NCBI RefSeq assembly: GCF_026651855.1 | Contig: NZ_CP093280.1 | Span: 6,284,501-6,348,500 of the forward strand | Length of the DNA stretch: 64,000 nucleotides | Direction: 5' to 3' | From: Pseudomonas silvicola | GTDB lineage: Bacteria > Pseudomonadota > Gammaproteobacteria > Pseudomonadales > Pseudomonadaceae | In this document: positions 12,438 to 46,810 of the stretch, one piece after another | Numbering within the stretch: position 1 is the stretch's first letter | How the letters are laid out: every line of letters begins with the position of its first letter | Translations under genes and position numbers: made by a program | Notes under the pieces: model-generated | Told to the model about the DNA's origin: nothing | What the model saw: the letters and a program-made list of their open reading frames with translations, nothing else | Database searches by the model: none

Positions 12438-14299
12438 CCTCGATCACTTCCCTGCTGGTGGCCAACCGTGGCGAAATCGCTTGCCGGGTGATGCGCACCG
12501 CCAAGGCCATGGGCTTGACCACGGTGGCCGTGCACAGCGCCATCGACCGTGACGCACGCCATGCCCGCGAAGCCGATCTGCGGGTCGACCTGGGCGGCAG
12601 CAAAGCCAGCGACAGCTACCTGGCCATCGACAAGATCATCGCCGCCGCCCGCGACAGCGGCGCCCAGGCCATTCACCCCGGCTACGGTTTCCTTTCCGAG
12701 AATGCTGAATTTGCGCGGGCCATCGAGGCCGCGGGGTTGATCTTCCTCGGCCCGCCTGCCAGTGCCATCGACGCCATGGGCAGCAAGTCGGCGGCCAAGG
12801 CCCTGATGGAAAGCGCCGGCGTGCCGCTGGTGCCGGGCTACCACGGCCAGGCGCAGGACCTGGAGACGTTCCGTACTGCCGCCGCGCGGATTGGTTACCC
12901 GGTGCTGCTCAAGGCCAGTGCGGGTGGCGGCGGCAAGGGTATGAAGGTGGTGGAGCGTGAAGGCGATCTGGCCGATGCCCTGGCTTCGGCCCAGCGGGAA
13001 GCGCAATCGTCATTCGGCGATTCACGCATGCTGGTGGAAAAGTACGTGCTGCAACCGCGTCATGTGGAAATCCAGGTATTCGCCGACCAGCATGGGCACT
13101 GCCTATACCTGAACGAGCGCGATTGCTCCATTCAGCGCCGCCACCAGAAGGTCGTCGAGGAGGCGCCGGCCCCGGGGCTGCCCGCCGAGTTGCGCCAGGC
13201 CATGGGCGAGGCGGCGGTGAAGGCGGCGCTGGCCATCGGTTACGTGGGCGCCGGCACCGTCGAATTTCTCCTCGACGCCCGGGGCGAATTCTTCTTCATG
13301 GAGATGAACACCCGGCTGCAGGTCGAACACCCGGTCACCGAAGCGATCACCGGGCTGGACCTGGTGGCCTGGCAGATCCGCGTGGCCCAGGGCGAACCCC
13401 TGCCCCTTGCCCAAGCCCAGGTACCGCTGCACGGGCATGCCATTGAAGTGCGCCTGTATGCCGAAGACCCGGACAACGCGTTTCTGCCCGCCACCGGCAC
13501 CCTGGCCCTGTACCGCGAGTCGGCACCCGGCCCGGGGCGGCGGGTAGACAGTGGTGTCAGCGAGGGTGACCAGGTCTCGCCGTTTTACGACCCCATGCTC
13601 GGCAAGCTGATTGCCTGGGGCGAAACCCGCGAGCAGGCACGGTTGCGCTTGCTGAGCATGCTCGACGAATTTTCCGTGGGCGGCGTGCGCACCAACCTGG
13701 CGTTCCTGCGGCGCATCATCGGCCACCCCGCCTTCGCCGCGGCCGAACTGGACACCGGGTTCATTCCCCGGCATCAGGCGCAGTTGCTGCCGGCCGCCGG
13801 CGTGTTGCCGCCTGCGTTCTGGCAAGCGGCCGCCGCAGCGCTGCTGCCATCACCCGGCAATGACCCGTGGTCCGCCGCCAGCGGCCTGCGCCTCGGGCTG
13901 CCCAGCGAGACCGTCGTGGCGGTGCGGTGTCGCGACCAGCACCAGGTGGTGCACCTGGCCAGCGGTGCGGCCACCCCCACGGCGTATCGGCGTGGGGACA
14001 CGGTGTACCTGCCCTGGCAGGGCGAGGTTTACCCGGTGAACCTGTTCGACGCCATCGCCGAGGCCGACGAAGGTCACAGCCACCAGGGTGGCCTCAACGC
14101 CCCCATGAACGGCAGCATCGTGCGGGTGCTGGTCAGTGCCGGGCAGTCAGTGGACGCCGGCACTGCGCTGGTGGTGCTTGAAGCCATGAAGATGGAACAC
14201 AGCATCCGCGCGCCCCAGGCCGGGCTGGTCAAGGCACTGCATTGCACCGAGGGCGACATGGTAACCGAGGGCAGTGTGCTGGTGGAGATGGAGGCGTAG
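12434..14299 (+). CDS. liuD: Methylcrotonyl-CoA carboxylase, biotin carboxylase/biotin carrier (alpha) subunit
   Basis: A 621-residue subunit that carboxylates biotin and carries it. It has an N-terminal biotin carboxylase domain (LLVANRGEIACRVMRTAK), an ATP-grasp glycine loop KASAGGGGKGMK (about 158-169), EMNTRLQVEHPVTE, and a C-terminal biotinyl domain with the acceptor lysine in LEAMKMEHS (K586, 35 residues from the end, the standard distance). It starts inside the liuC stop codon (ATGA). With LiuB it forms the carboxylase that commits isovalerate carbon to HMG-CoA. Confidence 0.95.
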   Translation: MTSITSLLVANRGEIACRVMRTAKAMGLTTVAVHSAIDRDARHAREADLRVDLGGSKASDSYLAIDKIIAAARDSGAQAIHPGYGFLSENAEFARAIEAAGLIFLGPPASAIDAMGSKSAAKALMESAGVPLVPGYHGQAQDLETFRTAAARIGYPVLLKASAGGGGKGMKVVEREGDLADALASAQREAQSSFGDSRMLVEKYVLQPRHVEIQVFADQHGHCLYLNERDCSIQRRHQKVVEEAPAPGLPAELRQAMGEAAVKAALAIGYVGAGTVEFLLDARGEFFFMEMNTRLQVEHPVTEAITGLDLVAWQIRVAQGEPLPLAQAQVPLHGHAIEVRLYAEDPDNAFLPATGTLALYRESAPGPGRRVDSGVSEGDQVSPFYDPMLGKLIAWGETREQARLRLLSMLDEFSVGGVRTNLAFLRRIIGHPAFAAAELDTGFIPRHQAQLLPAAGVLPPAFWQAAAAALLPSPGNDPWSAASGLRLGLPSETVVAVRCRDQHQVVHLASGAATPTAYRRGDTVYLPWQGEVYPVNLFDAIAEADEGHSHQGGLNAPMNGSIVRVLVSAGQSVDAGTALVVLEAMKMEHSIRAPQAGLVKALHCTEGDMVTEGSVLVEMEA

Positions 14300-16188: not shown

Positions 16189-17478
16189 TCAGTGGTCAGC
16201 GTACCTCTGCGGCTCGGTGGCGCTGGCATCCACCCGCTCGCCCATGGCTTGCTCGAAACGCGCCAAGGGCATCAGCGGCTGGCCATCGACACCAGCGAAC
16301 TGCACCCGGTACGGCGCGTCGTGGCTGAGCTGGCGCAACTGGTCCAGGCTCTGGGCCACATAGGCCAGGCTGACAAAGCGCTGGCCACTGCGCGGGTCCA
16401 GCCAGCGCTCGAACAACAGGGTGCCACCGGGCGCGGCGTCGTCCTCGGGGTACTCGGCGATCTTCCAGTCAAAGCCTAGCAGCGTACGCAACTGGGCGAT
16501 GTTGCTGTCATGGCCCACGTACGCCAGCCATGCCGCGGAGGGTGGGCCACCCGCGGCTGCCTTGCCGGTCTCCTCCAGCGCCAGCAACACCTGGCTCAGC
16601 AACTGCGAGGCGCCGCGGCGGGCCACGTAGGGCAGGTGCTGACTCAGAGCATATTTACCGCTGCGCAGTTCCATCAAACCCGCCACCTCATGGGCGGTGC
16701 GGCCTTGACCAAAGGCCACCTGGTCCAGCGGCATGCCTTCGGCGTACTGCATGCGGAACGTCTCGGCCATGGCCGCGCCGACGCTCAACGGGCCGCTGAG
16801 CTTGACCGTGGTGCCTTTTTCTTTCAGCCCCCAGGGCTGCTCGCTCAACGCGCAATGTGGCGCCTTGGGGCAGGTGGCGGGCACGCCGACCACGTTCTGC
16901 ATACGCAGCAAGGCCGGGCCATACTTCGCCTGGGCCGCCTGCGGGCTGCCGCCCATGGCCGCCAGAATAGCCTGCTCGGCCTGCTGGCGGTCCAGCCCAG
17001 CCAAGCCGTTCTCGCTACCATGGAACAGACGGTCCTGGCCCGCGCTGGCATGGTGCACCGGCACTGGGCAACCCGGGAACAGGCCTTCGAGCAATGCCTT
17101 GCTGGTCGCCCGGGTACGCGCTACCGGGCTGGACCAGAGGTAGGCTTGGCCAGCGCCAGGGCACCCATCGGCGGCCAGCAGCCCATGGCCCACCAGGTAC
17201 TGGCGCTGCCACTGGCCCAGCAGCACGGTGGCGGCATAACCGTGAGGCGTGAGTTGGCCATCGGCGACGGCAAAGCGCGGCCAGGTCTTGGCCGACCAGG
17301 CTTGCAACTCGGCGGTGTCAGTCGCCGGGCGGATACCGTGACGCATCACCAGCACCACCTTGTCCAGGCGCAGGCCCTCGGTGTTCAGGGTTTCGGCGTG
17401 CAACAGCGGGCTGGTCACCAGCGCCAGGGCCACGGCCAGGCCGCGCAACAACGGGTACTTAGAAGTCATAGCGGGCAT
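16189..17478 (-). CDS. Periplasmic histidine acid phosphatase, phytase (AppA/Agp) type
   Basis: A 429-residue member of histidine phosphatase clade 2. A signal peptide (TSKYPLLRGLAVALALVTSPLLHAE) sends it to the periplasm. The catalytic motif VMRHGIRPATD (RHGxRx, phosphohistidine at about residue 47) and the C-terminal AYVGHDSNIAQLRTLLG (HD proton donor) are present, and the paired cysteines fit disulfides. The family releases phosphate from phytate, glucose-1-phosphate or other phosphomonoesters; which one is not decided here. The start overlaps the receptor gene's end by 20 bp (a second ATG at 17469 is possible), so the two are translationally coupled. The operon is probably PhoB-controlled (sites at 21.7 and 22.8 kb). 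Confidence 0.87.
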   Translation of the reverse strand: MPAMTSKYPLLRGLAVALALVTSPLLHAETLNTEGLRLDKVVLVMRHGIRPATDTAELQAWSAKTWPRFAVADGQLTPHGYAATVLLGQWQRQYLVGHGLLAADGCPGAGQAYLWSSPVARTRATSKALLEGLFPGCPVPVHHASAGQDRLFHGSENGLAGLDRQQAEQAILAAMGGSPQAAQAKYGPALLRMQNVVGVPATCPKAPHCALSEQPWGLKEKGTTVKLSGPLSVGAAMAETFRMQYAEGMPLDQVAFGQGRTAHEVAGLMELRSGKYALSQHLPYVARRGASQLLSQVLLALEETGKAAAGGPPSAAWLAYVGHDSNIAQLRTLLGFDWKIAEYPEDDAAPGGTLLFERWLDPRSGQRFVSLAYVAQSLDQLRQLSHDAPYRVQFAGVDGQPLMPLARFEQAMGERVDASATEPQRYADH

Positions 17479-19588
17479 TCACACTCAAGGTCCGTGGCGA
17501 GCCGGGTTGCAGGTAGTTTTCCTGGTACCAGGTCCAGTATCTGTGGTTGGCCAGGTTGGTGACGTTGGCGCCAAAGGTCAATGCATGGCCGCCCGCCAGC
17601 CTCATGCGGTAGCCGCCGCCGGCATCGAACAGGCTGTAGGCATCCAGGGTATGCACGTTGCCCGAATCCACGGCCATGGGGCCGATACGCTGGGCACCGG
17701 CCCGCACGAACAGCCCCGGCACCGCGCCGATGCGGTAGGTGGCCTGGGCACCGGCCTGGTAGTGGGCGGCACCGGCGGCGCGGTTGCCGTCGACGTCCCC
17801 GGCATCCTGGTACTCGGAGTCCAGGGACATGATGCTGCCTTCCAGGGTCAGGCTGTCGATAGGGTCGACACTGCCGGCCAGCTCGATGCCCTGGTAGCGG
17901 ATCGTGCCGCTCTGCACGTAGACGTTGTCGCTGTTGGTGTACTCGGCGCCGCGGTCGATACGAAAGGCGGCGGCCGTGGCGCTCCAGTTGCGACGCTGGG
18001 CCTTCACGCCGATTTCATATTGCTTGCTACGCAGCGGCGCCAGGGTCTGGTCGGCGTTGTCGGCCGTGGTGGGCGCGGTGCCGCCGGCTTCCAGCGACTC
18101 GACGTAGCTGGCGTAGACGGTCACGTCCTGGATGGGCTTGTACATCAGCGCCACGGTAGGTGTAGCCGGGCGTGCCTTGTAGCGCACGGCCTCGCTGGTC
18201 GCCGAGTCGTGGGTCTCCTCCCGGAAGGTTTCGTTGCGCAGGCCGACCAGCAACGACCAGTGCTCGCCCAGGCCGAGCGTGTCGCTGGCAAATACCGCGC
18301 TTTCCTTGATCGAGTCGTCGCCGTAGGTGCCACCGCTGTAGTCGATGTCATACACCGAGAAAATCGTCGGGTCGTAGAGGTTGCCCTTGCCCACGGTACT
18401 TTTGGGGGTGTTGACCGACTTGCGCGACTGCAGGTCCGAATAGGAACTGCCCAGCACCAGGTCATGGCTGAACCAGCCCGTGGTGAATTTTCCTTCCAGG
18501 GTGCCCATGGCCTGGTTGTAGTCGTAGCCGTGGTATTCGGAGGTGACCTTGTCGGAGTAGTTGCCGCTGTTGCTGGTGATCTGGTACTGGTCTTTCACGT
18601 AACGGCGGTCCGAGTCACTGTAGCGGTACGCCAGGCGGCCCTGCCAGTTCGGCGAGAACTGATAGGTAGCGCTCAAGGTCGAGAGGCTGTAGTCCACGTC
18701 TGTGTAAGAGCCGTTGCTGTACAGGCGCTTGCTGCCATCGATGGTCTTGGGCAGCGCGTAGGCGGTGTTGACCACGATATCGGTGCCGCCGGAGGTCTTG
18801 CGCTGCTGGTAAAGGGTGTCGAAGTTGATCGTCAGGTCATCGGTCAGCTTGGCGTCCAGGGCCAGGCCCACGGCCGTGCGGTTGACCGCGGCGCCACCGC
18901 TGGCGGCGTCGCCCTCCTCGTGCACCAGGTTCAGCCGGTAGCCGAAGCGCGGGTCGTCCAGCCGGCCGCCCAGGTCGATGTGCTCCTTGTAGAGGTTATC
19001 GGACTGGTAGCCGGCGTCGACGCTGAACAGGGTCTTGTCGGTCGGGCGCTTGCTCACGTAGTTGACGATACCGCCCGGGCTGCCGAAACCGTACATGAAG
19101 CCCGACAGCCCTTGGAGCACCTCGACGCTGTCGAACATTTCCAGGGGCATTTCCACGCCACGGTTGATGTTGGCCATGCCGTCGACCTTGTAGCCGTTCA
19201 GGTCGTCAAGGGGCAGGCCGCGCACCGCCAGGGTGGCCGGGTGGGTGCCGTAGCTGGAGCTGATGGAGGTCACCGAGGCGTTGTATTTCACCGCCTCGGA
19301 AAGAATGCCGGCCTGGCGCTGCTGAATCTCTTCGCTGCTCACGCTCTTGATCGAGAACGGCGTGTCGATGGCCGCCTTGCTGCCCAGCGCGCCGCCGGAC
19401 ATTTTCTTGTGCAGCTCGGGCTTCTTGGCCTTGGCCGCCTTGACGGTCACTTGTGGCAGCGTGGCAAGCACGCTGTCATCGATGACCGGCGCGGCGTCGG
19501 CGGCCCAGATCGAAGGGGCCAGGGCAAAAGCCGCAAGGCCCGCGCCAGTGCGAACGGACAGCGCGTGAAACGGGTGTTTGCGAAGCAT
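17459..19588 (-). CDS. TonB-dependent outer-membrane receptor of the phytase operon
   Basis: A 709-residue TonB-dependent transporter. It has a signal peptide (to about residue 30), a plug domain (TPFSIKSVSSEEIQQRQAGILSEAVKYNASV, then ATLAVRGLPLDDLNGYKVDGM, VEVLQGLSGFMYGFGSPGGIVNYVSKRPT) and a 22-strand barrel ending in the aromatic RTLSVNARYDF. It looks like the siderophore-receptor group. However, it is co-transcribed with exbBD/tonB and overlaps a phytase-type phosphatase, and the operon has PHO boxes rather than Fur boxes. A phosphorylated ligand such as phytate or an iron-phytate complex is therefore inferred. The start at 19588 has GGAG 7 bp upstream; the longer start at 19612 lacks this. 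Confidence 0.88.
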   Translation of the reverse strand: MLRKHPFHALSVRTGAGLAAFALAPSIWAADAAPVIDDSVLATLPQVTVKAAKAKKPELHKKMSGGALGSKAAIDTPFSIKSVSSEEIQQRQAGILSEAVKYNASVTSISSSYGTHPATLAVRGLPLDDLNGYKVDGMANINRGVEMPLEMFDSVEVLQGLSGFMYGFGSPGGIVNYVSKRPTDKTLFSVDAGYQSDNLYKEHIDLGGRLDDPRFGYRLNLVHEEGDAASGGAAVNRTAVGLALDAKLTDDLTINFDTLYQQRKTSGGTDIVVNTAYALPKTIDGSKRLYSNGSYTDVDYSLSTLSATYQFSPNWQGRLAYRYSDSDRRYVKDQYQITSNSGNYSDKVTSEYHGYDYNQAMGTLEGKFTTGWFSHDLVLGSSYSDLQSRKSVNTPKSTVGKGNLYDPTIFSVYDIDYSGGTYGDDSIKESAVFASDTLGLGEHWSLLVGLRNETFREETHDSATSEAVRYKARPATPTVALMYKPIQDVTVYASYVESLEAGGTAPTTADNADQTLAPLRSKQYEIGVKAQRRNWSATAAAFRIDRGAEYTNSDNVYVQSGTIRYQGIELAGSVDPIDSLTLEGSIMSLDSEYQDAGDVDGNRAAGAAHYQAGAQATYRIGAVPGLFVRAGAQRIGPMAVDSGNVHTLDAYSLFDAGGGYRMRLAGGHALTFGANVTNLANHRYWTWYQENYLQPGSPRTLSVNARYDF

Positions 19589-19620
19589 GACAACTCCAGA
19601 AAAAGAGCGCACGAACCCTG

Positions 19621-19640
19621 CCCGCCAGCACGCTGGCGGG
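19621..19640. terminator. Intercistronic hairpin between exbD and the receptor gene
   Basis: CCCGCCAGCACGCTGGCGGG is a perfect inverted repeat (8-9 bp stem) in the 68-bp gap between exbD and the receptor gene. No T-tract follows on the minus strand. An attenuator or mRNA-stabilising role within the operon is more likely than full termination. Confidence 0.5.
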
Positions 19641-19656
19641 GGGAACGAAGCAGGAA

Positions 19657-20076
19657 TCAGGGCGTGACGGCCTGGGTAACGAAACCGATTTTTTCCAGGC
19701 CGCCGGACTGCGCAGCGGCCATCACTTGCACGACCTTTTCGTAGGGCGTGTCACGTTGAGCCCGCAGGTGCAATTCCGGCACTGGCTGGCGCGCAGCGGC
19801 CTCGGCGATCAGCGCCGGCAGCTCGGCATCGCTGATGTCGCGATCGTCCCAGTGCAGGTGGCCACTGTTGTCCAGGGCCAGGTCCACCGCCACCGGCGGC
19901 TTGTTGTCCTGCTGCGCCGCGGCGTGGGGCAGGTCGATCTTGACGCTGTGCTGGATGGCCGGCACGGTGATGATGAAAATCACCAGCAGCACCAGCATCA
20001 CGTCCACCAGCGGCGTGGTGTTGATCTCCGGGTTGAAGCTGTCGTCGTCCAGCTCGTCCTGCAAGCCACCGGCCAT
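19657..20076 (-). CDS. exbD: ExbD-family proton-channel subunit
   Basis: A 139-residue ExbD/TolR protein with one N-terminal membrane helix carrying the functional aspartate (INTTPLVDVMLVLLVIFIITVPA, residues 19-41; D in LVDVML) and a small periplasmic domain (VPELHLRAQRDTPYEKVVQVMAAAQSGGLEKIGFVT). It pairs with ExbB to couple the proton gradient to TonB. Its ATG overlaps the exbB stop by one base, showing coupling. The set is dedicated to this operon; the genome presumably has another ExbBD for siderophores. Confidence 0.92.
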   Translation of the reverse strand: MAGGLQDELDDDSFNPEINTTPLVDVMLVLLVIFIITVPAIQHSVKIDLPHAAAQQDNKPPVAVDLALDNSGHLHWDDRDISDAELPALIAEAAARQPVPELHLRAQRDTPYEKVVQVMAAAQSGGLEKIGFVTQAVTP

Positions 20077-20804
20077 CAGACGTACTCCGCGCGGGCACGG
20101 GGCATGGCCCGCTGCGGTGCCTGCCCCGGGGGGGTGGCGCGGGCGCCGATCACCAGCAGGTCATGCAGCTCGAAGGCGAACTTGCCCAGCTCGGCCAGGG
20201 TTTGCTTGTTGGTGCGCACCAGCAGGTTGTACGCCAGGGTCGCGGGGATGGCCACGGCCAGGCCCAGGGCCGTCATGATCAAGGTTTCGCCCACCGGGCC
20301 AGCCACCTTGTCGATACTGGCATCACCGGTCAGGCCGATCTTCATCAAGGCGTGGTAGATCCCCCACACGGTGCCCAGCAGGCCCACGAACGGTGCGCTG
20401 GAGCCCACGGTGGCCAACACCGCCATACCGCCTTGCAGGCGTGCGCCCACCACCAGGGTGGCCTGGCGCAGGGCACGGCTGAGCCACTCGCTGAACGGCG
20501 GCGGGTTCATGCCGCTGTCCAGGGCTTCGCGGTGCTGGCTGGCGGCGCTGACGCCGGCATGGCCCAATGCCCCGTAGGCCGGATCGGTGGCGAGTTGGCG
20601 CAGGCCATCACTGACGGTGGGTGCGCCCCAGAACGCGGCCAACAGGCGCGGCGAGCGCAGGCGGGAAAGCCCCAGGCGCACCAGTTTGTCGGCGATCACG
20701 TACCAGGACGCCAACGACATGGCCAGCAGCATCAACGCCACGCCACGGGTCACGGCGTCGGCCTGCCCCCACAGCATGTCCAGGCCAAGGGAAGTGTTTT
20801 GCAT
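20076..20804 (-). CDS. exbB: ExbB/TolQ-family proton-channel protein
   Basis: A 242-residue MotA/TolQ/ExbB protein with three membrane helices: residues about 18-37 (TRGVALMLLAMSLASWYVIAD), about 118-140 (VLATVGSSAPFVGLLGTVWGIYHAL, the conserved GLLGTVWG) and about 165-190 (ALGLAVAIPATLAYN). It forms the pentameric channel around ExbD and energises TonB. The start MQNTSLGLDMLWG (20804) is preferred to the upstream in-frame start at 20846, which is further from a ribosome-binding site. It lies 95 bp downstream of tonB copy 1. Confidence 0.92.
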   Translation of the reverse strand: MQNTSLGLDMLWGQADAVTRGVALMLLAMSLASWYVIADKLVRLGLSRLRSPRLLAAFWGAPTVSDGLRQLATDPAYGALGHAGVSAASQHREALDSGMNPPPFSEWLSRALRQATLVVGARLQGGMAVLATVGSSAPFVGLLGTVWGIYHALMKIGLTGDASIDKVAGPVGETLIMTALGLAVAIPATLAYNLLVRTNKQTLAELGKFAFELHDLLVIGARATPPGQAPQRAMPRARAEYV

Positions 20805-20899
20805 GGTGTAGTCCTCGTCAATCGTCAGAACGCGCCCGAGCACCACCCTGGCGAGGCCGCCGAGGGGGGAGTCCGGGGTTGGGTAAAGGGGTGTGGAGG

Positions 20900-21592
20900 T
20901 CAGCTGTCCAGCTGAAAGCGCAGGGGTACGATCACGTACACCGAGAGCGCGTGGCCGTCTTCGCGGTAAGGCTTGAAGACGGCAGCGCGCGCCGCCGCCC
21001 TGCCCGCCTCGTCGAGGCTGCCGAAGCCCGAGGAGCGCACCACATCGATACGCCCCGGCCTGCCGGTTTCGTCCACCAGCACCCGCAGGATCACCGTGCC
21101 TTCGTTGCCGTCCTCGCGGTCACGGTCCGGGTACTGGGGTTCGGGCGCGCGCACGTATTCCACGCCATGGGTGATGGTTTTTGGCGGCGCGGGGGGTGGC
21201 GCCGGTACAGGCGCGGCCGCGGGTGCCGGGGTTGGCGCGGCGCTGGCCACGGCTGGCACGGGCGCTGGCGCCGGTGTGGGTACCGCCACATGACGCGGCG
21301 CCGGGGCCTTGGCCACGGGTTTGGGCTGCGGCCGCGCCACTGGCGTGGGGGGCGGCGGTGTCACCGGTGCGGCGGGGGGTTGCGGGGCCGCTGCGGGGGC
21401 CGGCGCGGGCTCGTTGATCACCGAAGCGTAAATCGTCCGGGGTTGGCTCACGGCCAATGGCATGGGGGCCTGGTGGGCAAACCAGCTGATCACCAGCACA
21501 TGCACGGCCACCACCGCGGCCACCTTCACGGCGCGGGCCGGCAACGGGTGGCGGCGGGTAAACGGCTGGGCCGTGGTCAGGGCTGCTTGCAT
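20900..21592 (-). CDS. tonB: TonB energy transducer, copy 1 (exbB-proximal)
   Basis: A 230-residue TonB protein with a cytoplasmic start, one membrane anchor (AVKVAAVVAVHVLVISWFA, about 21-39), a long Pro/Ala-rich periplasmic span (about 60-150) and a C-terminal TonB domain (GVEYVRAPEPQYPDRDREDGNEGTVILRVLVDETGR.., about 152-230) ending FQLDS. It links ExbBD to the TonB box of the receptor. The start at 21592 has GAGGAG 7 bp upstream; the longer frame from 21646 is not supported. The encoded protein is identical to that of the second copy. Confidence 0.92.
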   Translation of the reverse strand: MQAALTTAQPFTRRHPLPARAVKVAAVVAVHVLVISWFAHQAPMPLAVSQPRTIYASVINEPAPAPAAAPQPPAAPVTPPPPTPVARPQPKPVAKAPAPRHVAVPTPAPAPVPAVASAAPTPAPAAAPVPAPPPAPPKTITHGVEYVRAPEPQYPDRDREDGNEGTVILRVLVDETGRPGRIDVVRSSGFGSLDEAGRAAARAAVFKPYREDGHALSVYVIVPLRFQLDS

Positions 21593-21681
21593 GGTCTGGC
21601 TCCTCACTGGCGTCGATGCCAGGTACTGCGGTCCGGTCCTCGGCACACCGGCCTGGGGCAGGTGCTGCGGAATGTGCGGGC

Positions 21682-21715
21682 ACTATAGGAACCGCAGATG
21701 ACAGCGCCATGACGG
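21682..21715 (-). promoter_or_regulatory. PHO box and -10 of tonB copy 1
   Basis: On the minus strand CCGTCATGGCGCTGTCAT (21715 to 21698) matches CTGTCAT-N4-CTGTCAT at 13 of 14 conserved positions. TATAGT (21687 to 21682) follows 10 bp downstream as the -10. This is the standard geometry of a PhoB-activated promoter with the PHO box in place of the -35. The tonB start is 90 bp further on. It predicts induction of the tonB-exbBD-receptor-phytase operon in low phosphate. Confidence 0.85.
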
Positions 21716-21960
21716 TTTTGAGGGTTTTTGGTAAGGGTTTCGTGACATTTGCTGGCGTCTTTCGATCGAGCGCCGCCCGCGCGGCGCTCGACGTTGAGCA
21801 CGCCAACAAACGCACCCCAAAAAAAACACAGTCACTGCGACGGATTCCCCCATGGCCACCGTTAAACCCATCAGCAGCGTTCACCGTCGAACGCGCCTGA
21901 GCACCACCCTGGCGAGGCCGCCGAGGGGGGAGTCCGGGGTTGGGTAAAGGGGTGTGGAGG

Positions 21961-22653
21961 TCAGCTGTCCAGCTGAAAGCGCAGGGGTACGATCACGTAC
22001 ACCGAGAGCGCGTGGCCGTCTTCGCGGTAAGGCTTGAAGACGGCAGCGCGCGCCGCCGCCCTGCCCGCCTCGTCGAGGCTGCCGAAGCCCGAGGAGCGCA
22101 CCACATCGATACGCCCCGGCCTGCCGGTTTCGTCCACCAGCACCCGCAGGATCACCGTGCCTTCGTTGCCGTCCTCGCGGTCACGGTCCGGGTACTGGGG
22201 TTCGGGCGCGCGCACGTATTCCACGCCGTGGGTGATGGTTTTTGGCGGCGCGGGGGGTGGCGCCGGTACAGGCGCGGCCGCGGGTGCCGGGGTTGGCGCG
22301 GCGCTGGCCACGGCTGGCACGGGCGCTGGCGCCGGTGTGGGTACCGCCACATGACGCGGCGCCGGGGCCTTGGCCACGGGTTTGGGCTGCGGCCGCGCCA
22401 CTGGCGTGGGGGGCGGCGGTGTCACCGGTGCGGCGGGGGGTTGCGGGGCCGCTGCGGGGGCCGGCGCGGGCTCGTTGATCACCGAAGCGTAAATCGTCCG
22501 GGGTTGGCTCACGGCCAATGGCATGGGGGCCTGGTGGGCAAACCAGCTGATCACCAGCACATGCACGGCCACCACCGCGGCCACCTTCACGGCGCGGGCC
22601 GGCAACGGGTGGCGGCGGGTAAACGGCTGGGCCGTGGTCAGGGCTGCTTGCAT
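21961..22653 (-). CDS. tonB: TonB energy transducer, copy 2 (promoter-distal duplicate)
   Basis: The product is identical in amino-acid sequence to that of tonB copy 1, 1,061 bp away; the only coding difference is a silent His codon change. Start, ribosome-binding site (GAGGAG), membrane anchor, Pro-rich span and C-terminal domain are as in copy 1. It is the first gene of the operon. Transcripts from its promoter would run through the duplicate into exbBD unless they stop in the 368-bp spacer. The effect may simply be a doubled TonB dose. It may also be a transient or collapsed-assembly feature. Confidence 0.9.
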   Translation of the reverse strand: MQAALTTAQPFTRRHPLPARAVKVAAVVAVHVLVISWFAHQAPMPLAVSQPRTIYASVINEPAPAPAAAPQPPAAPVTPPPPTPVARPQPKPVAKAPAPRHVAVPTPAPAPVPAVASAAPTPAPAAAPVPAPPPAPPKTITHGVEYVRAPEPQYPDRDREDGNEGTVILRVLVDETGRPGRIDVVRSSGFGSLDEAGRAAARAAVFKPYREDGHALSVYVIVPLRFQLDS

Positions 22654-22742
22654 GGTCTGGCTCCTCACTGGCGTCGATGCCAGGTACTGCGGTCCGGTCC
22701 TCGGCACACCGGCCTGGGGCAGGTGCTGCGGAATGTGCGGGC

Positions 22743-22776
22743 ACTATAGGAACCGCAGATGACAGCGCCATGACGG
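22743..22776 (-). promoter_or_regulatory. PHO box and -10 of tonB copy 2
   Basis: This is an exact copy of the site at 21682-21715: CCGTCATGGCGCTGTCAT on the minus strand (22776 to 22759) with TATAGT (22748 to 22743). It is the original operon promoter, in the intergenic region shared with the divergent gene at 22972. Confidence 0.85.
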
Positions 22777-22921
22777 TTTTGAGGGTTTTTGGTAAGGGTT
22801 TCGTGACATTTGCTGGCGTCTTTCGATCGAGCGCCGCCCGCGCGGCGCTCGACGTTGAGCACGCCAACAAACGCACCCCAAAAAAAACACAGTCACTGCG
22901 ACGGATTCCCCCATGGCCACC

Positions 22922-22930
22922 GTTAAACCC
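22922..22930 (+). promoter_or_regulatory. GTTAAACCC motif, possible ECF-sigma -35 for the WxxGxW gene
   Basis: GTTAAACCC lies 42 bp before the ATG at 22972. CGTC follows 15 nt later, as in an ECF-type promoter (AAC..N15-16..CGTC). The same nine bases occur at 24852-24860, 51 bp before the second WxxGxW gene, and nowhere else that I noticed except the duplicated tonB spacer (21861). Recognition by the ECF sigma encoded between the two genes is inferred. Confidence 0.4.
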
Positions 22931-22971
22931 ATCAGCAGCGTTCACCGTCGAACGCGCCTGAAGGAGCTGTC

Positions 22972-23358: not shown

Positions 23359-23937
23359 TTGAAAGAACCTGATCCGGACATCGAGCTGCTGGCCCGCATC
23401 GGCAAGAATGAACCGGCCGCCGTCAACGAGATGGTGTCGCGCAAGCTGCCCCGGCTGCTGGCGCTCGCCAGCCGCTTGCTGGGCGACGCCGACGAAGCTC
23501 GGGACGTGGCGCAGGAGAGCTTCGTGCGGATCTGGAAGCAGGCCGCGCGCTGGCGCCCTGGCCAGGCACGCTTCGACACCTGGCTGCACCGCGTGGCGCT
23601 GAACCTGTGTTATGACCGGCTGCGCCGCCGTCAGGAACGGCCACTGGACGACACGGCCCTGCACGACCTGGCCGACCCCGCGCTGGCGCCCGAGCAGCAA
23701 CTCGAAGCGCATGACACCCGTGCGCGGATGGACGCCGCGCTGGCGGCATTGCCACCACGCCAACGCGAAGCCATCGTGCTGCAGTATTACCAGGAACTGT
23801 CGAATATCGAGGCAGCGGCGCTCATGGAGATCAGCGTCGAGGCGTTGGAAAGCCTGCTCTCGCGAGCCCGGCGCAACCTGCGCGACTACCTCGCCGAACC
23901 ACCCGGCGCCGCCGGCCTAGGAAGGGGAAAATCATGA
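23359..23937 (+). CDS. ECF-type RNA polymerase sigma factor
   Basis: A 192-residue sigma-70 family ECF factor. Region 2 (RLLGDADEARDVAQESFVRIWKQAARWRPGQARFDTWLHRVALNLCYDRLRRR, about 35-90) and region 4 (ALAALPPRQREAIVLQYYQELSNIEAAALMEISVEALESLLSRARRNLRDYL, about 125-180) are clear. The best start is a TTG at 23359; no in-frame ATG gives an intact N-terminus. The last codons overlap the next gene (ATGA). The membrane protein and periplasmic sensor encoded next probably hold it inactive until an envelope signal, perhaps metal or misfolded protein, arrives. Confidence 0.9.
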   Translation: MKEPDPDIELLARIGKNEPAAVNEMVSRKLPRLLALASRLLGDADEARDVAQESFVRIWKQAARWRPGQARFDTWLHRVALNLCYDRLRRRQERPLDDTALHDLADPALAPEQQLEAHDTRARMDAALAALPPRQREAIVLQYYQELSNIEAAALMEISVEALESLLSRARRNLRDYLAEPPGAAGLGRGKS

Positions 23938-26479: not shown

Positions 26480-28678
26480 TTAGAGAGGGGTAGCGGGTTT
26501 GCCCAATGACAACCTTCGATTGGCTGATAACGGGGGGTTATCGATGGCCAGCGACTCGCCGCACCACGCCGCCAATTGCGCGATGGCACGCTCTACTTCC
26601 TGGTCCCAGCCAAACCCGGCATTGAGCCGGAAACAATGATCGTACCGCCCATCGGTGGCGAAAATATGCCCCGGCGCAATCCCGATGCCCAGTGCACGCG
26701 CCTTGATGAACAGCTCCCTCACGTTCAGCGCCCCGTGAGGCATCTCCACCCACAGCACATACCCGCCTTCCGGTTCCGACACCCGCGTACCCGCCGGAAA
26801 ATGGCGCGATACCGCTTCGCGCATCTGCCGAACCTGACTGGCGAGCGTAGCGCGCAACCTGCGCAGGTGGGCGTCATAGCCGCCACTGCGGAGCATCTCG
26901 GCAATCGCCATTTGCGGCGGCACCGAGGTGCCCATGCTGGAGGTGTATTTGAGCATCATCAGCCGCCGGCTGTGCTGGCGGCTGTACACCCAGCCGATGC
27001 GCAAGCCCGGCGCCAGGGTCTTGGAGAAACCGCTGCATAGCAGCGCGTTGGCGGTAAAGGCCAGCAGGGGAAACGGCCGTTGTTCACCGAACGCGGTGTC
27101 GCCAAAGATATCGTCCTCGATGAGGATGATGCCGTGCGCATCGGCAGCCTGGGCGATGGCGGCCTTGGCGGCGTTGGGAATGCTTTTGCCCAGCGGGTTG
27201 TTGATGTTGGCCAGGGTGACGAAGGCGTTGACAGCCCGGGTTTCGAACAAGGCGACCAGGCGGTCTACGTCAATGTGCCCGGCAGTGCCGGCAGGTACCT
27301 CCACCACCCTAAGGCCCAGGCTCTGGAGCATGTGCAGCAGGACGAAATAGCACGGGGATTCGACGGCCACCGCATCGCCCGCGCTCAGGGTCGCCCGCAA
27401 GGCCAGCGACAGGGCTTCGATGCAGCCGTTGGTGATCAGCAGGTCGTCGGGGTCCAGGTGGCAGCCATAGCTCACGGCACGGCGGGATATCTCGGCTTTC
27501 AGCGGCGGGTAGCCGGTGCCTTTGACTGTACTGCCCCATACCGCAGGCTTCGCCTGGCCAGCCTTGCGCAGCAGCACAGCCATTTTCTCCAGCGGGTACA
27601 GGGTGCTGGCGCCGTTGGCCAGGTCGAGGCGCACGCGGCACTCGCTGCCGACCATGGCCAGGTGCAGTTCGGTCTGTTCGTCCAGGGGCGCGATGACTTT
27701 GGCCTGGTCGCGCGGGGCAGCGGGATTTGCCCTCACGAAGAAACCGGACTTCGGCCGGGCCTCGGCGTAGCGCTGGTTTTCCAGGGCACGCAAGGCGTTC
27801 AGCGCGGTGGTCTGGCTGACCCCGTACTGTGCGGCGAGGGTGCGTACCGAGGGTAGCCGGGCGCCGGGCTGCAGGGTACCGGTGTCGATGGCGGCCTTGG
27901 CGGCGTTGGGAATGCTTTTGCCCAGCGGGTTGTTGATGTTGGCCAGGGTGACGAAGGCGTTGACAGTCCGGGTTTCGAACAAGGCGACCAGGCGGTCTAC
28001 GTCAATGTGCCCGGCAGTGCCGGCAGGTACCTCCACCACCCTAAGGCCCAGGCTCTGGAGCATGTGCAGCAGGACGAAATAGCAGGGGGATTCGACGGCC
28101 ACCGCATCGCCCGCGCTCAGGGTCGCCCGCAAGGCCAGCGACAGGGCTTCGATGCAGCCGTTGGTGATCAGCAGGTCATCGGGGTCCAGGTGGCAGCCAT
28201 AGCTCACGGCACGGCGGGATATCTCGGCTTTCAGCGGCGGGTAGCCGGTGCCTTTGACGGTACTGCCCCATACCGCAGGCTTCGCCTGGCCAGCCTTGCG
28301 CAGCAGCACAGCCATTTTCTCCAGCGGGTACAGGGTGCTGGCGCCGTTGGCCAGGTCGAGGCGCACGCGGCACTCGCTGCCGACCATGGCCAGGTGCAGT
28401 TCGGTCTGTTCGTCCAGGGGCGCGATGACTTTGGCCTGGTCGCGCGGGGCAGCGGGATTTGCCCTCACGAAGAAACCGGACTTCGGCCGGGCCTCGGCGT
28501 AGCGCTGGTTTTCCAGGGCACGCAAGGCGTTCAGCGCGGTGGTCTGGCTGACCCCGTACTGTGCGGCGAGGGTGCGTACCGAGGGTAGCCGGGCGCCGGG
28601 CTGCAGGGTACCGGTGTCGATGGCGGCCTTGATCTGCTCGGCGAGCTGCCGGTAGCGCGCGCGCCCTTCTGGTGTCAT
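26480..28678 (-). CDS. MocR/PdxR-type GntR-aminotransferase regulator with an internal 244-residue duplication
   Basis: A 732-residue reading frame of the MocR family: an N-terminal GntR winged HTH (RLPSVRTLAAQYGVSQTTALNALRALE) fused to a fold-type-I aminotransferase domain used as an effector sensor. Normal members are about 480-500 residues. Here a 732-bp segment covering the HTH, the linker and the first half of the aminotransferase domain (to SIPNAAKAA) is repeated in frame, giving 244 extra residues. Only the last copy continues into the PLP-lysine region (LLCSGFSKTLAPGLRIGW). The start at 28678 has GAGG upstream (an ATG at 28720 is possible). It is divergent from the EamA gene. Whether the product folds is unknown. 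Confidence 0.85.
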   Translation of the reverse strand: MTPEGRARYRQLAEQIKAAIDTGTLQPGARLPSVRTLAAQYGVSQTTALNALRALENQRYAEARPKSGFFVRANPAAPRDQAKVIAPLDEQTELHLAMVGSECRVRLDLANGASTLYPLEKMAVLLRKAGQAKPAVWGSTVKGTGYPPLKAEISRRAVSYGCHLDPDDLLITNGCIEALSLALRATLSAGDAVAVESPCYFVLLHMLQSLGLRVVEVPAGTAGHIDVDRLVALFETRTVNAFVTLANINNPLGKSIPNAAKAAIDTGTLQPGARLPSVRTLAAQYGVSQTTALNALRALENQRYAEARPKSGFFVRANPAAPRDQAKVIAPLDEQTELHLAMVGSECRVRLDLANGASTLYPLEKMAVLLRKAGQAKPAVWGSTVKGTGYPPLKAEISRRAVSYGCHLDPDDLLITNGCIEALSLALRATLSAGDAVAVESPCYFVLLHMLQSLGLRVVEVPAGTAGHIDVDRLVALFETRAVNAFVTLANINNPLGKSIPNAAKAAIAQAADAHGIILIEDDIFGDTAFGEQRPFPLLAFTANALLCSGFSKTLAPGLRIGWVYSRQHSRRLMMLKYTSSMGTSVPPQMAIAEMLRSGGYDAHLRRLRATLASQVRQMREAVSRHFPAGTRVSEPEGGYVLWVEMPHGALNVRELFIKARALGIGIAPGHIFATDGRYDHCFRLNAGFGWDQEVERAIAQLAAWCGESLAIDNPPLSANRRLSLGKPATPL
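27154..28617. repeat. In-frame tandem duplication (732-bp period) inside the MocR gene
   Basis: Bases 27154-27885 and 27886-28617 are head-to-tail copies. They differ at a few positions (for example CACGGGGA/CAGGGGGA near 27352/28084, TCGTCGG/TCATCGG, ACTGTACT/ACGGTACT, AGCCCGGG/AGTCCGGG). The 14-bp sequence CGATGGCGGCCTTG begins each copy and recurs once more at 28618-28631, marking the recombination homology. The period is divisible by three, so the frame is preserved. Confidence 0.93.
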
Positions 28679-28782
28679 CTGTACTGCCTCGAATTCACGG
28701 GATCTGTGTATCGTCGGCACGCTACGGCGGCCCTAGAATCGAGTCAAGCGAACACGCTAATCAGTGATACAAGGAATGCTTC

Positions 28783-45154: not shown

Positions 45155-46810
45155 AAGGCGGGGCGGACCGGGCAATGGAGCAGGCATAACTGGCCCGAAA
45201 CAGAGGTGGGAGCGGGCGGCGCCAGATCTCAAGGGCGCCGGAAAAACCAAGGCATGCACATGGAGGCCCTGACCCCATCCAAAGCCAAACCAACAAGGCG
45301 GTCAAGGCAATGGCACAGACATAACTGGCCCGAAACAGATGTAGGAGCGAGGGGGGCGCCTAGCCCTTGCTCGCGAAGCGCCGCGCGGGCGGCGCGCGGT
45401 CTCAAGGGCGCCGGAAAAACCAAGGCATGCACATGGAGGCCCTGACCCAATCTCCAGCCAAACCAACAAGGCGGGCCAGGCAATGGCACAGGCATAACTG
45501 GCCCGAAACAAATGTAGGAGCAGAGCTTGCTCGCGAAGCGCCGCGCGGGCGGCGCACGGTCTCAAGGGCGCCGGAGAACCCAAGCCATGCACCTCGCCGC
45601 CCTGACCCAATCCCCAGCCAAACCAACAAGGCGGACCAGGCAATGGCACAGGCATAACTGGCCCGAAACAGATGTAGGAGCAGAGCTTGCTCGCGAAGCG
45701 CCGCGCGGGCGGCGCGCGGTCTCAAGGGCGCCGGAAAAACCAAGGCATGCACATGGAGGCTCTGACCCAATCTCCAGCCAAACCAACAAGGCGGACCAGG
45801 CAATGGCACAGGCATAACTGGCCCGAAACAGATGTGGGACCGGGCTTGCCCGGGAAGCGCCGCGCGGGCGGCGCACGGTCTCGAGGGCGCCGGAAAAACC
45901 AAGGCATGCACATGGAGGCCCTGACCCGATCCCAAGGCGAACAACCAAGGCGGACCAGGCAATGGCACAGGCATAACTGGCCCGAAACAGATGTAGGAGC
46001 AGAGCTTGCTCGCGAAGCGCCGCGCGGGCGGCGCACGGTCTGAAGGGCTCTGGAGAATCCAAGCCATGCACCTAGAGGCCATGATGCGGTTTCATGACTG
46101 GCCGTTAGGGCCCCGCTAGAGATCTCATCATGGCCACCAAGCGCTAGTCGATGGTGTTGTAGCGCCCTTGAGACCGTGCGCCGCCCGCGCGGCGCTTCGC
46201 GAGCAAGCTCTGCTCCTACGTCTGTTTCGGGCCAATTATGTCTGTGGGATTGCCTGGTCCGCCTTGTTTTTCCGGCTTGAGGCCGTATCAAGGCCGCCAG
46301 GTGCATGCCTCAAGGTTTCCGGCGCCCTTGAGACCGTGCGCCGCCCGCGCGGCGCTTCGCGAGCAAGGGCTAGGCGCCCCCCTCGCTCCTACGTTTGTTT
46401 CGGGCCAGTTATGTCTGTGGGATTGCCTGGTCCGCCTTGTTCTTCCGGCTTGAGACCGTATCATGGCCACCAGGTGCATGCCTCAAGGTTTCCGGCGCCC
46501 TCGAGACCGTGCGCCGCACGCGCGGCGCTTCGCGAGCAAGGGCTAGGCGCCCCCCTCGCTCCTACGTCTGTTTCGGGCCAGTTACGTCTGTGAGATTGCC
46601 TGGTCCGCCTTGGTTGTTCGCCTGGAGATTGGGTCAGGGCCTCTAGGTGCATGCCTTGGTTTCTCCAGCGCCCTTGCGACCGTGCGCCGCCCGCGCGGCG
46701 CTTCCCGGGCAAGCCCGGTCCCACATCTGTTTCAGGCCAGTTATGCCTGTGCCATTGCCTGGTCCGCCTTGTTTGCCTGGCTTGAGATTGGGTCAGGGCC
46801 AGATCTTCAG
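45155..46810. repeat. Array of ten ~160-bp REP-derived repeat units, six direct then four inverted
   Basis: The unit anchor ATAACTGG stands at 45186, 45321, 45494, 45654, 45814 and 45973. Its complement stands at 46232, 46405, 46578 and 46737 (with single-base changes in two). Spacings are 159-160 bp with 135- and 173-bp variants. Each full unit holds GTAGGAGC..CTTGCTCGCGAAG (a REP core), a GC hairpin such as GCGCCGCGCGGGCGGCGC, and a conserved segment including GGCATGCACATGGAGGCC. A unique ~75-bp centre (46085-46160) separates the two halves. The array fills the gap between the convergent FAH and sensor-kinase genes and carries no believable gene. It could form a very large cruciform or RNA hairpin. 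Confidence 0.92.

Follow-up and report, generated by a model that had tools for sequence, protein, structure and literature searches.

A PHO-type promoter, a TonB energiser, a receptor and a phytase-like phosphatase in one Pseudomonas gene run: a probable uptake system for inositol polyphosphates

What might a TonB-dependent receptor annotated as a siderophore receptor import, when its gene overlaps that of a histidine acid phosphatase and both follow their own tonB, exbB and exbD behind a PHO box? The locus that raises this question lies on the minus strand of a 64,000-nucleotide stretch of the Pseudomonas silvicola genome (contig NZ_CP093280.1, positions 6,284,501 to 6,348,500), hereafter the window, where the order from 22776 down to 16189 is PHO box and promoter, tonB, promoter and tonB repeated, exbB, exbD, receptor and phosphatase. 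How Gram-negative bacteria bring phytate to their enzymes is, to our knowledge, poorly settled. The explanation that we favour, and hold to be likely, is that this unit would carry out PhoB-controlled, TonB-energised import of an inositol polyphosphate across the outer membrane, phytate in the first place (free or as a metal complex), followed by its hydrolysis in the periplasm. The features concerned are:

22759..22776, minus strand: PHO box, distal copy, CCGTCATGGCGCTGTCAT; -10 hexamer TATAGT at 22743-22748, 10-nt spacer
21961..22707, minus strand: tonB, distal copy; open frame with likely start ATG 22653, a sequence copy of the frame that matches TonB_C
21698..21715, minus strand: PHO box, proximal copy; -10 hexamer TATAGT at 21682-21687
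20900..21646, minus strand: tonB, proximal copy; likely start ATG 21592, TonB_C 65 bits
20828..22961, no strand: tandem duplication; copies 20828-21900 and 21889-22961, period 1,061 bp
20076..20846, minus strand: exbB; MotA_ExbB 101 bits, 48-99% identity to the other module loci
19657..20076, minus strand: exbD; ExbD 101 bits, 58-100% identity to the other module loci
17459..19612, minus strand: TonB-dependent receptor; likely start ATG 19588, plug 56 bits and barrel 146 bits
16189..17478, minus strand: histidine acid phosphatase, AppA/PhyK-like; His_Phos_2 78 bits (cut-off 23.6)

A sequence-only reading of this DNA had described tonB, exbB, exbD, receptor and phosphatase as one minus-strand run with overlaps of one base to 20 bp, and the Pfam matches and coordinates agree with it: exbB and exbD share a single base (20076), and the receptor and phosphatase genes overlap by 20 bp (17459-17478). 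The same reading had seen near-consensus PHO boxes, and here only a part stands. The box 10 nt from TATAGT is real, but the two boxes are one box copied, because promoter and tonB both lie inside the 1,061-bp tandem repeat. Scored against what we take to be the PHO consensus strings, the box has one mismatch in 14 positions to CTGTCATNNNNCTGTCAY, and TATAGT has one in six to the -10 consensus. Our criterion was two CTGTCAY-type 7-mers, 4 apart, with a -10 at 10 nt, box and -10 being scored together over 20 positions; on this measure the site is the best in the 64-kb window on both strands, with 2 matches (the two copies) among 127,932 positions.

Genome-wide, CTGTCATNNNNCTGTCAT is matched with at most one mismatch at nine sites, two of which are the window copies, and with at most two mismatches at 30 sites, compared with 11 for the reversed pattern; the surroundings were read for eight of the nine. 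One site precedes pstC-pstA-pstB-phoU, so the motif does occur in a position expected of a Pho box; there the hexamer spaced by 10 nt is TAGGGT, which agrees with the -10 consensus at three of six positions, and pstA, pstB and phoU score above their family cut-offs, with pstC just below its own (194.0 against 196.45). A further site is found 345 nt upstream of a PitA-like gene, which scores 231.6 bits (cut-off 800). Four more (L002-L005; here and below, L and G numbers are our handles for loci and genomes) have no phosphate gene in the parts inspected, those at L002 and L004 being read without a family search, so a one-mismatch box alone is no proof of control. That the tonB operon would be under PhoB control and induced by low phosphate is suggested by its promoter sequence, and the question becomes whether this promoter and the genes behind it are kept together elsewhere.

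A search with the phosphatase through 398 genomes of the genus gave 20 genomes with a relative at E 1e-30, six of them (the window's included) at 66-100% identity and 14 at 42-47%, and all six genomes of the first group carry the five-gene module. The second group represents a different setting, with no such receptor in the 17-18 kb read around the gene in four of its 14 genomes; in seven of the 14, two such phosphatase genes are adjacent (L071, L072, L074 and others). The receptor was scanned for in the genome_contigs collection, where the scan detects close relatives only, and all 13 loci recovered have the order tonB-exbB-exbD-receptor-phosphatase: Pseudomonas sp. M47T1, gamma proteobacterium L18, Pseudomonas sp. 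7P_10.2_Bac1, P. helleri, P. oryzihabitans, Paraburkholderia (two) and Pandoraea (six records, one a metagenome bin). The neighbourhood search proposed earlier thus finds the same five-gene order in 13/13 scanned loci and in four further genomes (G307, G114, G115 and G970). We count 17 distinct loci, namely the 13, those of G307, G114 and G115, and the window, of which nine are of Pseudomonas type and eight beta-proteobacterial; G970 is an eighteenth. L075 and G407 represent one genome, as do L076 and G106, and each was counted once.

The receptors of these loci stand sharply apart, with orthologues at 1,332-1,429 bits and the next clade at 650 or less. Among 398 genomes of the phylum an orthologue score is reached only by the window's own (1,429 bits; next 599), and among 398 genomes of the family of Pandoraea G806 by eight (at least 1,339 bits; next 650). 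Receptor and phosphatase identities are correlated over 136 pairs (r = 0.96; taken separately, the two groups give 0.96 and 0.98), which points to a unit inherited together, a correlation that host ancestry gives too. In the outgroup receptor loci L098-L106 neither such a phosphatase (0/9) nor exbB, exbD and tonB (0/9) were found, and in L144-L152 the phosphatase was again found in 0/9 and the energiser genes in 2/9. These two sister-clade loci (L145 and L146, Burkholderiaceae, about 650 bits) have the different order receptor-tonB-exbB-exbD, without the phosphatase. Plasmid carriage was considered and set aside: six plasmid records came up at E 1e-100, all below 60% identity. The DUF1615 lipoprotein, which had been thought a possible part of the system, and gpx are neighbours of the module in the closest clade alone (4/17 loci: window, L066, L067 and L068) and were not found in the other 13, and we drop both as members.

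The promoter was compared over 450 nt upstream of tonB and 150 nt inside it in each locus, with no threshold fixed beforehand for either the PHO or the Fur scan. The PHO test covered the 17 loci, leaving out G970, and 18 outgroups, which are receptor loci of other clades, among them a second receptor from the genome of the window, and from which L148 was dropped for its short contig. The best PHO plus -10 site has 2-7 mismatches over 20 positions in 17/17 module loci, versus 8-10 in 18/18 outgroup loci. A PHO-like box with the 10-nt offset to the -10 stands at the expected place in 17/17, and in 13/17 it outscores every other site on either strand of the entire locus (except, in the window, its own copy, which ties with it); two or three equally good sites occur in L068, L081 and L084, and five in L080.

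What the unit would carry is approached through its two terminal proteins. The phosphatase has an N-terminal segment that looks signal-like by eye and the motifs RHGIR and HDSN, of the RHGxR and HDxN type, and R46-H47-G48-x-R50 and H323-D324 are invariant in all 17 sequences. Run against the PDB, profile A2 places phytases first (2wnh, 286 bits), followed by other phytases and histidine acid phosphatases, with AppA at about 218 bits and glucose-1-phosphatases at 186-190; with the window phosphatase alone as query, glucose-1-phosphatases again come last. We take 2wnh to be the Klebsiella 3-phytase, and pf02333, which appears below, to be the beta-propeller phytase class. The enzyme thus resembles AppA and the Klebsiella 3-phytase (1dkl, 2wnh) in family and in both motifs, but differs from them in lying below the AppA cut-off and in sharing its operon with a dedicated receptor and energiser.

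The receptor reaches 328.1 bits against TIGR01783 (TonB-dependent siderophore receptor; cut-off 223.5). It consists of plug and barrel only, without the signalling architecture of the PUMA3 kind, and an ECF sigma gene at 23359-23937 is on the opposite strand and outside the unit. In alignment A1 (17 members, 59-99% identical to the window protein) the receptors from the beta loci share 59-65% identity with that of the window, and in the plug segment THPATLAVRGLPLDDLNGYK-x-DG a single position varies. On these two grounds a single ligand is expected across the gamma and beta receptors, as the near-invariant plug stretch suggests.

The gap between exbD and the receptor holds a perfect inverted repeat, CCCGCCAGC-GT-GCTGGCGGG, at 19621-19640. 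We do not claim a terminator role for it, its fold being only slightly better than that of shuffled sequences (z -1.96), and it might tune receptor against energiser levels. By eye, the same gap in other Pseudomonas-type loci contains inverted repeats of different sequence, and no known RNA element scored above threshold between window positions 14000 and 30000.

Evidence on the ligand comes from the beta-proteobacterial loci, whose flanking genes were annotated in part. In 8/8 of them a permease, an ATPase and an inositol-monophosphatase-family gene directly precede tonB (three of these phosphatase genes were run against Pfam and match PF00459 at 163-180 bits), and in the 4/4 loci with long flanks (L156-L159) this cassette begins with a LacI-family gene and the gene of a binding protein. 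The nearest solved structures to the L156 binding protein are AfuA (257 bits), the iron-named relative 8x1a (248) and P5PA, a pyridoxal-phosphate binder (230). AfuA has been shown to bind hexose and heptose phosphates in cyclic form, and it loses binding when H205, D206 or E229 is replaced by alanine (PMC4546632; this and the papers cited below are represented by the part of their text open to us). The L156 protein retains H205, D206, E229 and T150, with alanine in place of S37, by hand count on the alignment (chain numbering +2). The likeness to AfuABC is therefore that AfuA is the closest solved relative and 4/5 ligand residues are kept; the difference lies in the company of the L156 cassette, which comes with an inositol-monophosphatase-family gene, a LacI regulator and the TonB module.

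The coupling extends beyond the module itself. An AfuA-like binding protein at E 1e-70 occurs in 13 of the 398 family-sample genomes, 8/8 with the module and 5/390 others, and in four of these five (L173-L176) LacI, transporter and inositol-monophosphatase-family genes are together; at the fifth locus, L177, neither LacI nor the phosphatase was found. The cassette adjoins iolB, iolD, an iolC-aldolase gene and iolG in L175, each above its curated cut-off, and a porin and an AppA-like histidine acid phosphatase (474 bits, cut-off 585) in L176; in L174 it adjoins a porin, and in L173 the gene at the corresponding position has no family match. L175 could be an island for inositol-phosphate utilisation in its own right. 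In 8/8 beta loci the PHO box lies between two TGCA-N6-TGCA palindromes (-67 to -97 and +72 to +82, raw count), and the same palindrome is seen again close to the porin genes and, by hand count, some 110 nt upstream of the likely start of iolG; these palindromes would be LacI operators. Upstream of the LacI gene, L157, L158 and L159 show a weak PHO-like site (6-7/20 mismatches) with TAAGCT at the -10 place, by which their AfuA-type cassette may also be under PhoB; the best PHO-like site before the LacI gene of L156 differs from theirs. Among the Pseudomonas-type loci, L069 has ABC transporter, GDPD, inositol-monophosphatase-family and GH10 genes downstream, and the flanks read at the other eight gave no inositol-monophosphatase match.

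The import-and-dephosphorylation reading proposed from the first inspection gains support from gene content and order, from promoter geometry and its conservation (17/17 loci) and from the inositol-phosphate context, all of which are observed, and from these we infer PhoB binding, transport, ligand, enzyme activity and LacI operators. Under phosphate starvation PhoB would act on the PHO box in place of a -35 element and drive tonB-exbB-exbD-receptor-phosphatase. Phytate is a highly charged molecule of about 660 Da; the dedicated TonB-ExbB-ExbD would power the receptor and so bring the ester into the periplasm, where the phosphatase would strip phosphate from it for uptake by the Pst system. 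In Pandoraea and Paraburkholderia the AfuA-type ABC transporter would then move the leftover cyclic-polyol monophosphate inward, the inositol-monophosphatase-family enzyme would complete dephosphorylation, and a LacI-type repressor would add a second, substrate-linked control. Going further, these lineages could possess a complete proteobacterial inositol-phosphate pathway from outer membrane to cytoplasm, with inositol monophosphate entering through the AfuA-type transporter and paired LacI operators around the PHO box giving an AND-type control by PhoB and LacI, while the window's lineage would hold the outer half, its tonB and promoter recently doubled; on this wider proposal we are evenly divided.

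Several observations weigh against the import of an inositol polyphosphate under PhoB. The PHO match is weak (6-7/20 mismatches) in L068, L078-L082 and L084, and within the region scanned L080 has a better site than the expected one (6 versus 7) and L081 an equal one. The phosphatase falls below the AppA equivalog cut-off (PRK10172, 239.9 against 585 bits), so we term it phytase-like rather than a phytase, and the receptor is nearest by sequence to the siderophore receptors FemA and BauA. The AfuA-type cassette is present in 0/9 Pseudomonas-type loci in the flanks read; a relative of the AfuA-like binding protein (28-35%) exists in six of the nine Pseudomonas-type genomes, with none at E 1e-20 in the other three. 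Among the four cassette-only loci, iol genes adjoin in one and the phosphatase in one. HisN and SuhB fit the inositol-monophosphatase-family gene about equally, both below cut-off, and by these scores it may encode a histidinol-phosphatase-like enzyme. Of 12 module genomes checked, eight, the window's included, have iolD above its cut-off, and G807, G808, G806 and G970 do not; inositol use is not needed for a phosphate-scavenging role. Finally, metal uptake could be favoured by the gene for an Nramp-type metal transporter on the far side of the LacI gene in L157. The window's genome itself has weak AfuA relatives only (29% and 35%), the 35% one with a broken frame; an AfuA-like gene on its contig C2 (G000) contains seven stops.

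Histidine acid phosphatases are, as is generally known, often promiscuous, and the GDPD and GH10 genes downstream of the L069 module would suit import of some other bulky phosphate ester (a phosphorylated oligosaccharide, a glycerophosphoinositol-type diester, or a nucleotide or cofactor phosphate), the inositol context of the beta loci then being secondary. AfuA itself binds hexose phosphates (PMC4546632) and its relative P5PA pyridoxal phosphate (PMC8427247). The cassette, however, adjoins iolBCDG and a second AppA-like phosphatase, which inositol phosphates fit best, and another ester as the cargo seems to us rather unlikely. The place of the receptor in the TIGR01783 siderophore subfamily, near FemA and BauA, and the Nramp-type gene beside the cassette of L157 would agree with a phosphate-controlled system for iron or another metal, in which ferric phytate or a metal phosphate-ester complex is taken up mainly for a metal that the phosphatase frees; phytate-mediated iron supply exists in P. 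aeruginosa. Against this stand the PHO-like promoter in 17/17 loci and the Fur scan. The best Fur-like match upstream of the window's tonB is 9/19, in keeping with the earlier remark that no Fur box was seen, and the module loci (n = 17) reach at most 12/19, compared with 14-16/19 in 4/18 outgroup receptor loci; the scan has little power, because the other 14 outgroups do not exceed 13/19 either. Taken together, uptake mainly for the metal is improbable. The idea that a PHO box and a phosphatase gene joined an ordinary siderophore receptor operon by chance has nothing but the family annotation in its favour, whereas gamma and beta genera agree in gene order, phosphatase and PHO geometry and the outgroup receptor loci have such a phosphatase in 0/9 and 0/9 and exbB, exbD and tonB in 0/9 and 2/9; we give this explanation almost no credence.

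The doubled tonB deserves a separate comment. The two 1,073-bp copies differ at two positions and have 12 nt in common at the junction, and the sister genome L066, whose receptor and phosphatase are 99% and 96% identical to the window's, has a single tonB; no short repeat was found in L066 at the upstream breakpoint. This duplication may be either biological or an effect of assembly. A second tandem duplication of like appearance is present in the window at 27154-28631 (period 732 bp). About 5 kb from the tonB duplication, it is in-frame within 26480-28720, a MocR/GntR-type gene by eye, with four internal mismatches and 14 nt common at the junction. Positions 45212-46713 hold tandem arrays whose periods are about 160, 319 and 173 bp. 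The assembly (G000) measures 8.65 Mb with 8.04% contamination, and listed congeners 3.7-7.3 Mb, which could reflect a duplication-rich genome or an assembly issue.

Parts of this arrangement have precedents. In Citromicrobium bathyomarinum JL354 a TonB-dependent transporter stands beside a phytase, and phytic acid was suggested from this context (PMC3400609). There as here a receptor gene adjoins a phytase-family gene, in our case of the histidine acid phosphatase class and with overlapping genes, but the organism is of another bacterial group, and the accessible text of that paper mentions neither tonB-exbBD nor a PHO box and leaves the phytase class unstated. Flavobacterium johnsoniae likewise has a phytase (Fjoh_1367) and a TonB-dependent transporter (Fjoh_1368) in one context, both among its phosphate-depletion-responsive genes (PMC8115612); its phytase is of pf02333 and its receptor of a Bacteroidetes type with pf13715, and no energiser of its own is seen in the portion of the source available. 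The PUMA3 system of P. aeruginosa (vreAIR, exbB2D2, tonB4) shares exbB-exbD-tonB genes with pho boxes and is transcribed PhoB-dependently in low phosphate, but it needs the ECF sigma factor VreI, its VreA lacks a barrel, and its role is in signalling and virulence rather than phosphatase-linked import, as far as the available text goes (PMC4971064). In the literature, of which open-licence papers only were covered (weak evidence for an absence), we found no description of a unit that combines its own energiser, a receptor, a histidine acid phosphatase and a PHO promoter, nor of the link to an AfuA-type cassette. As far as these partly seen sources reach, receptor-phytase pairs and PhoB-controlled TonB genes are thus known, and their combination in one unit was not found.

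For the biology of these bacteria, our results offer a ligand hypothesis for a receptor annotated as a siderophore receptor, and they tie four gene sets, the TonB module, the AfuA-type transporter, the inositol-monophosphatase family and the iol genes, to one another by common neighbours and a palindrome. Phytate makes up as much as half of the organic phosphorus in some soils, as quoted in PMC5082522. The accessible part of the same study reports for three Pseudomonas strains no evidence that PhoBR regulates their phytases, which unexpectedly lay outside the PHO regulon; if the module described here is indeed PHO-controlled, it would be a counter-example to that finding within the same genus.

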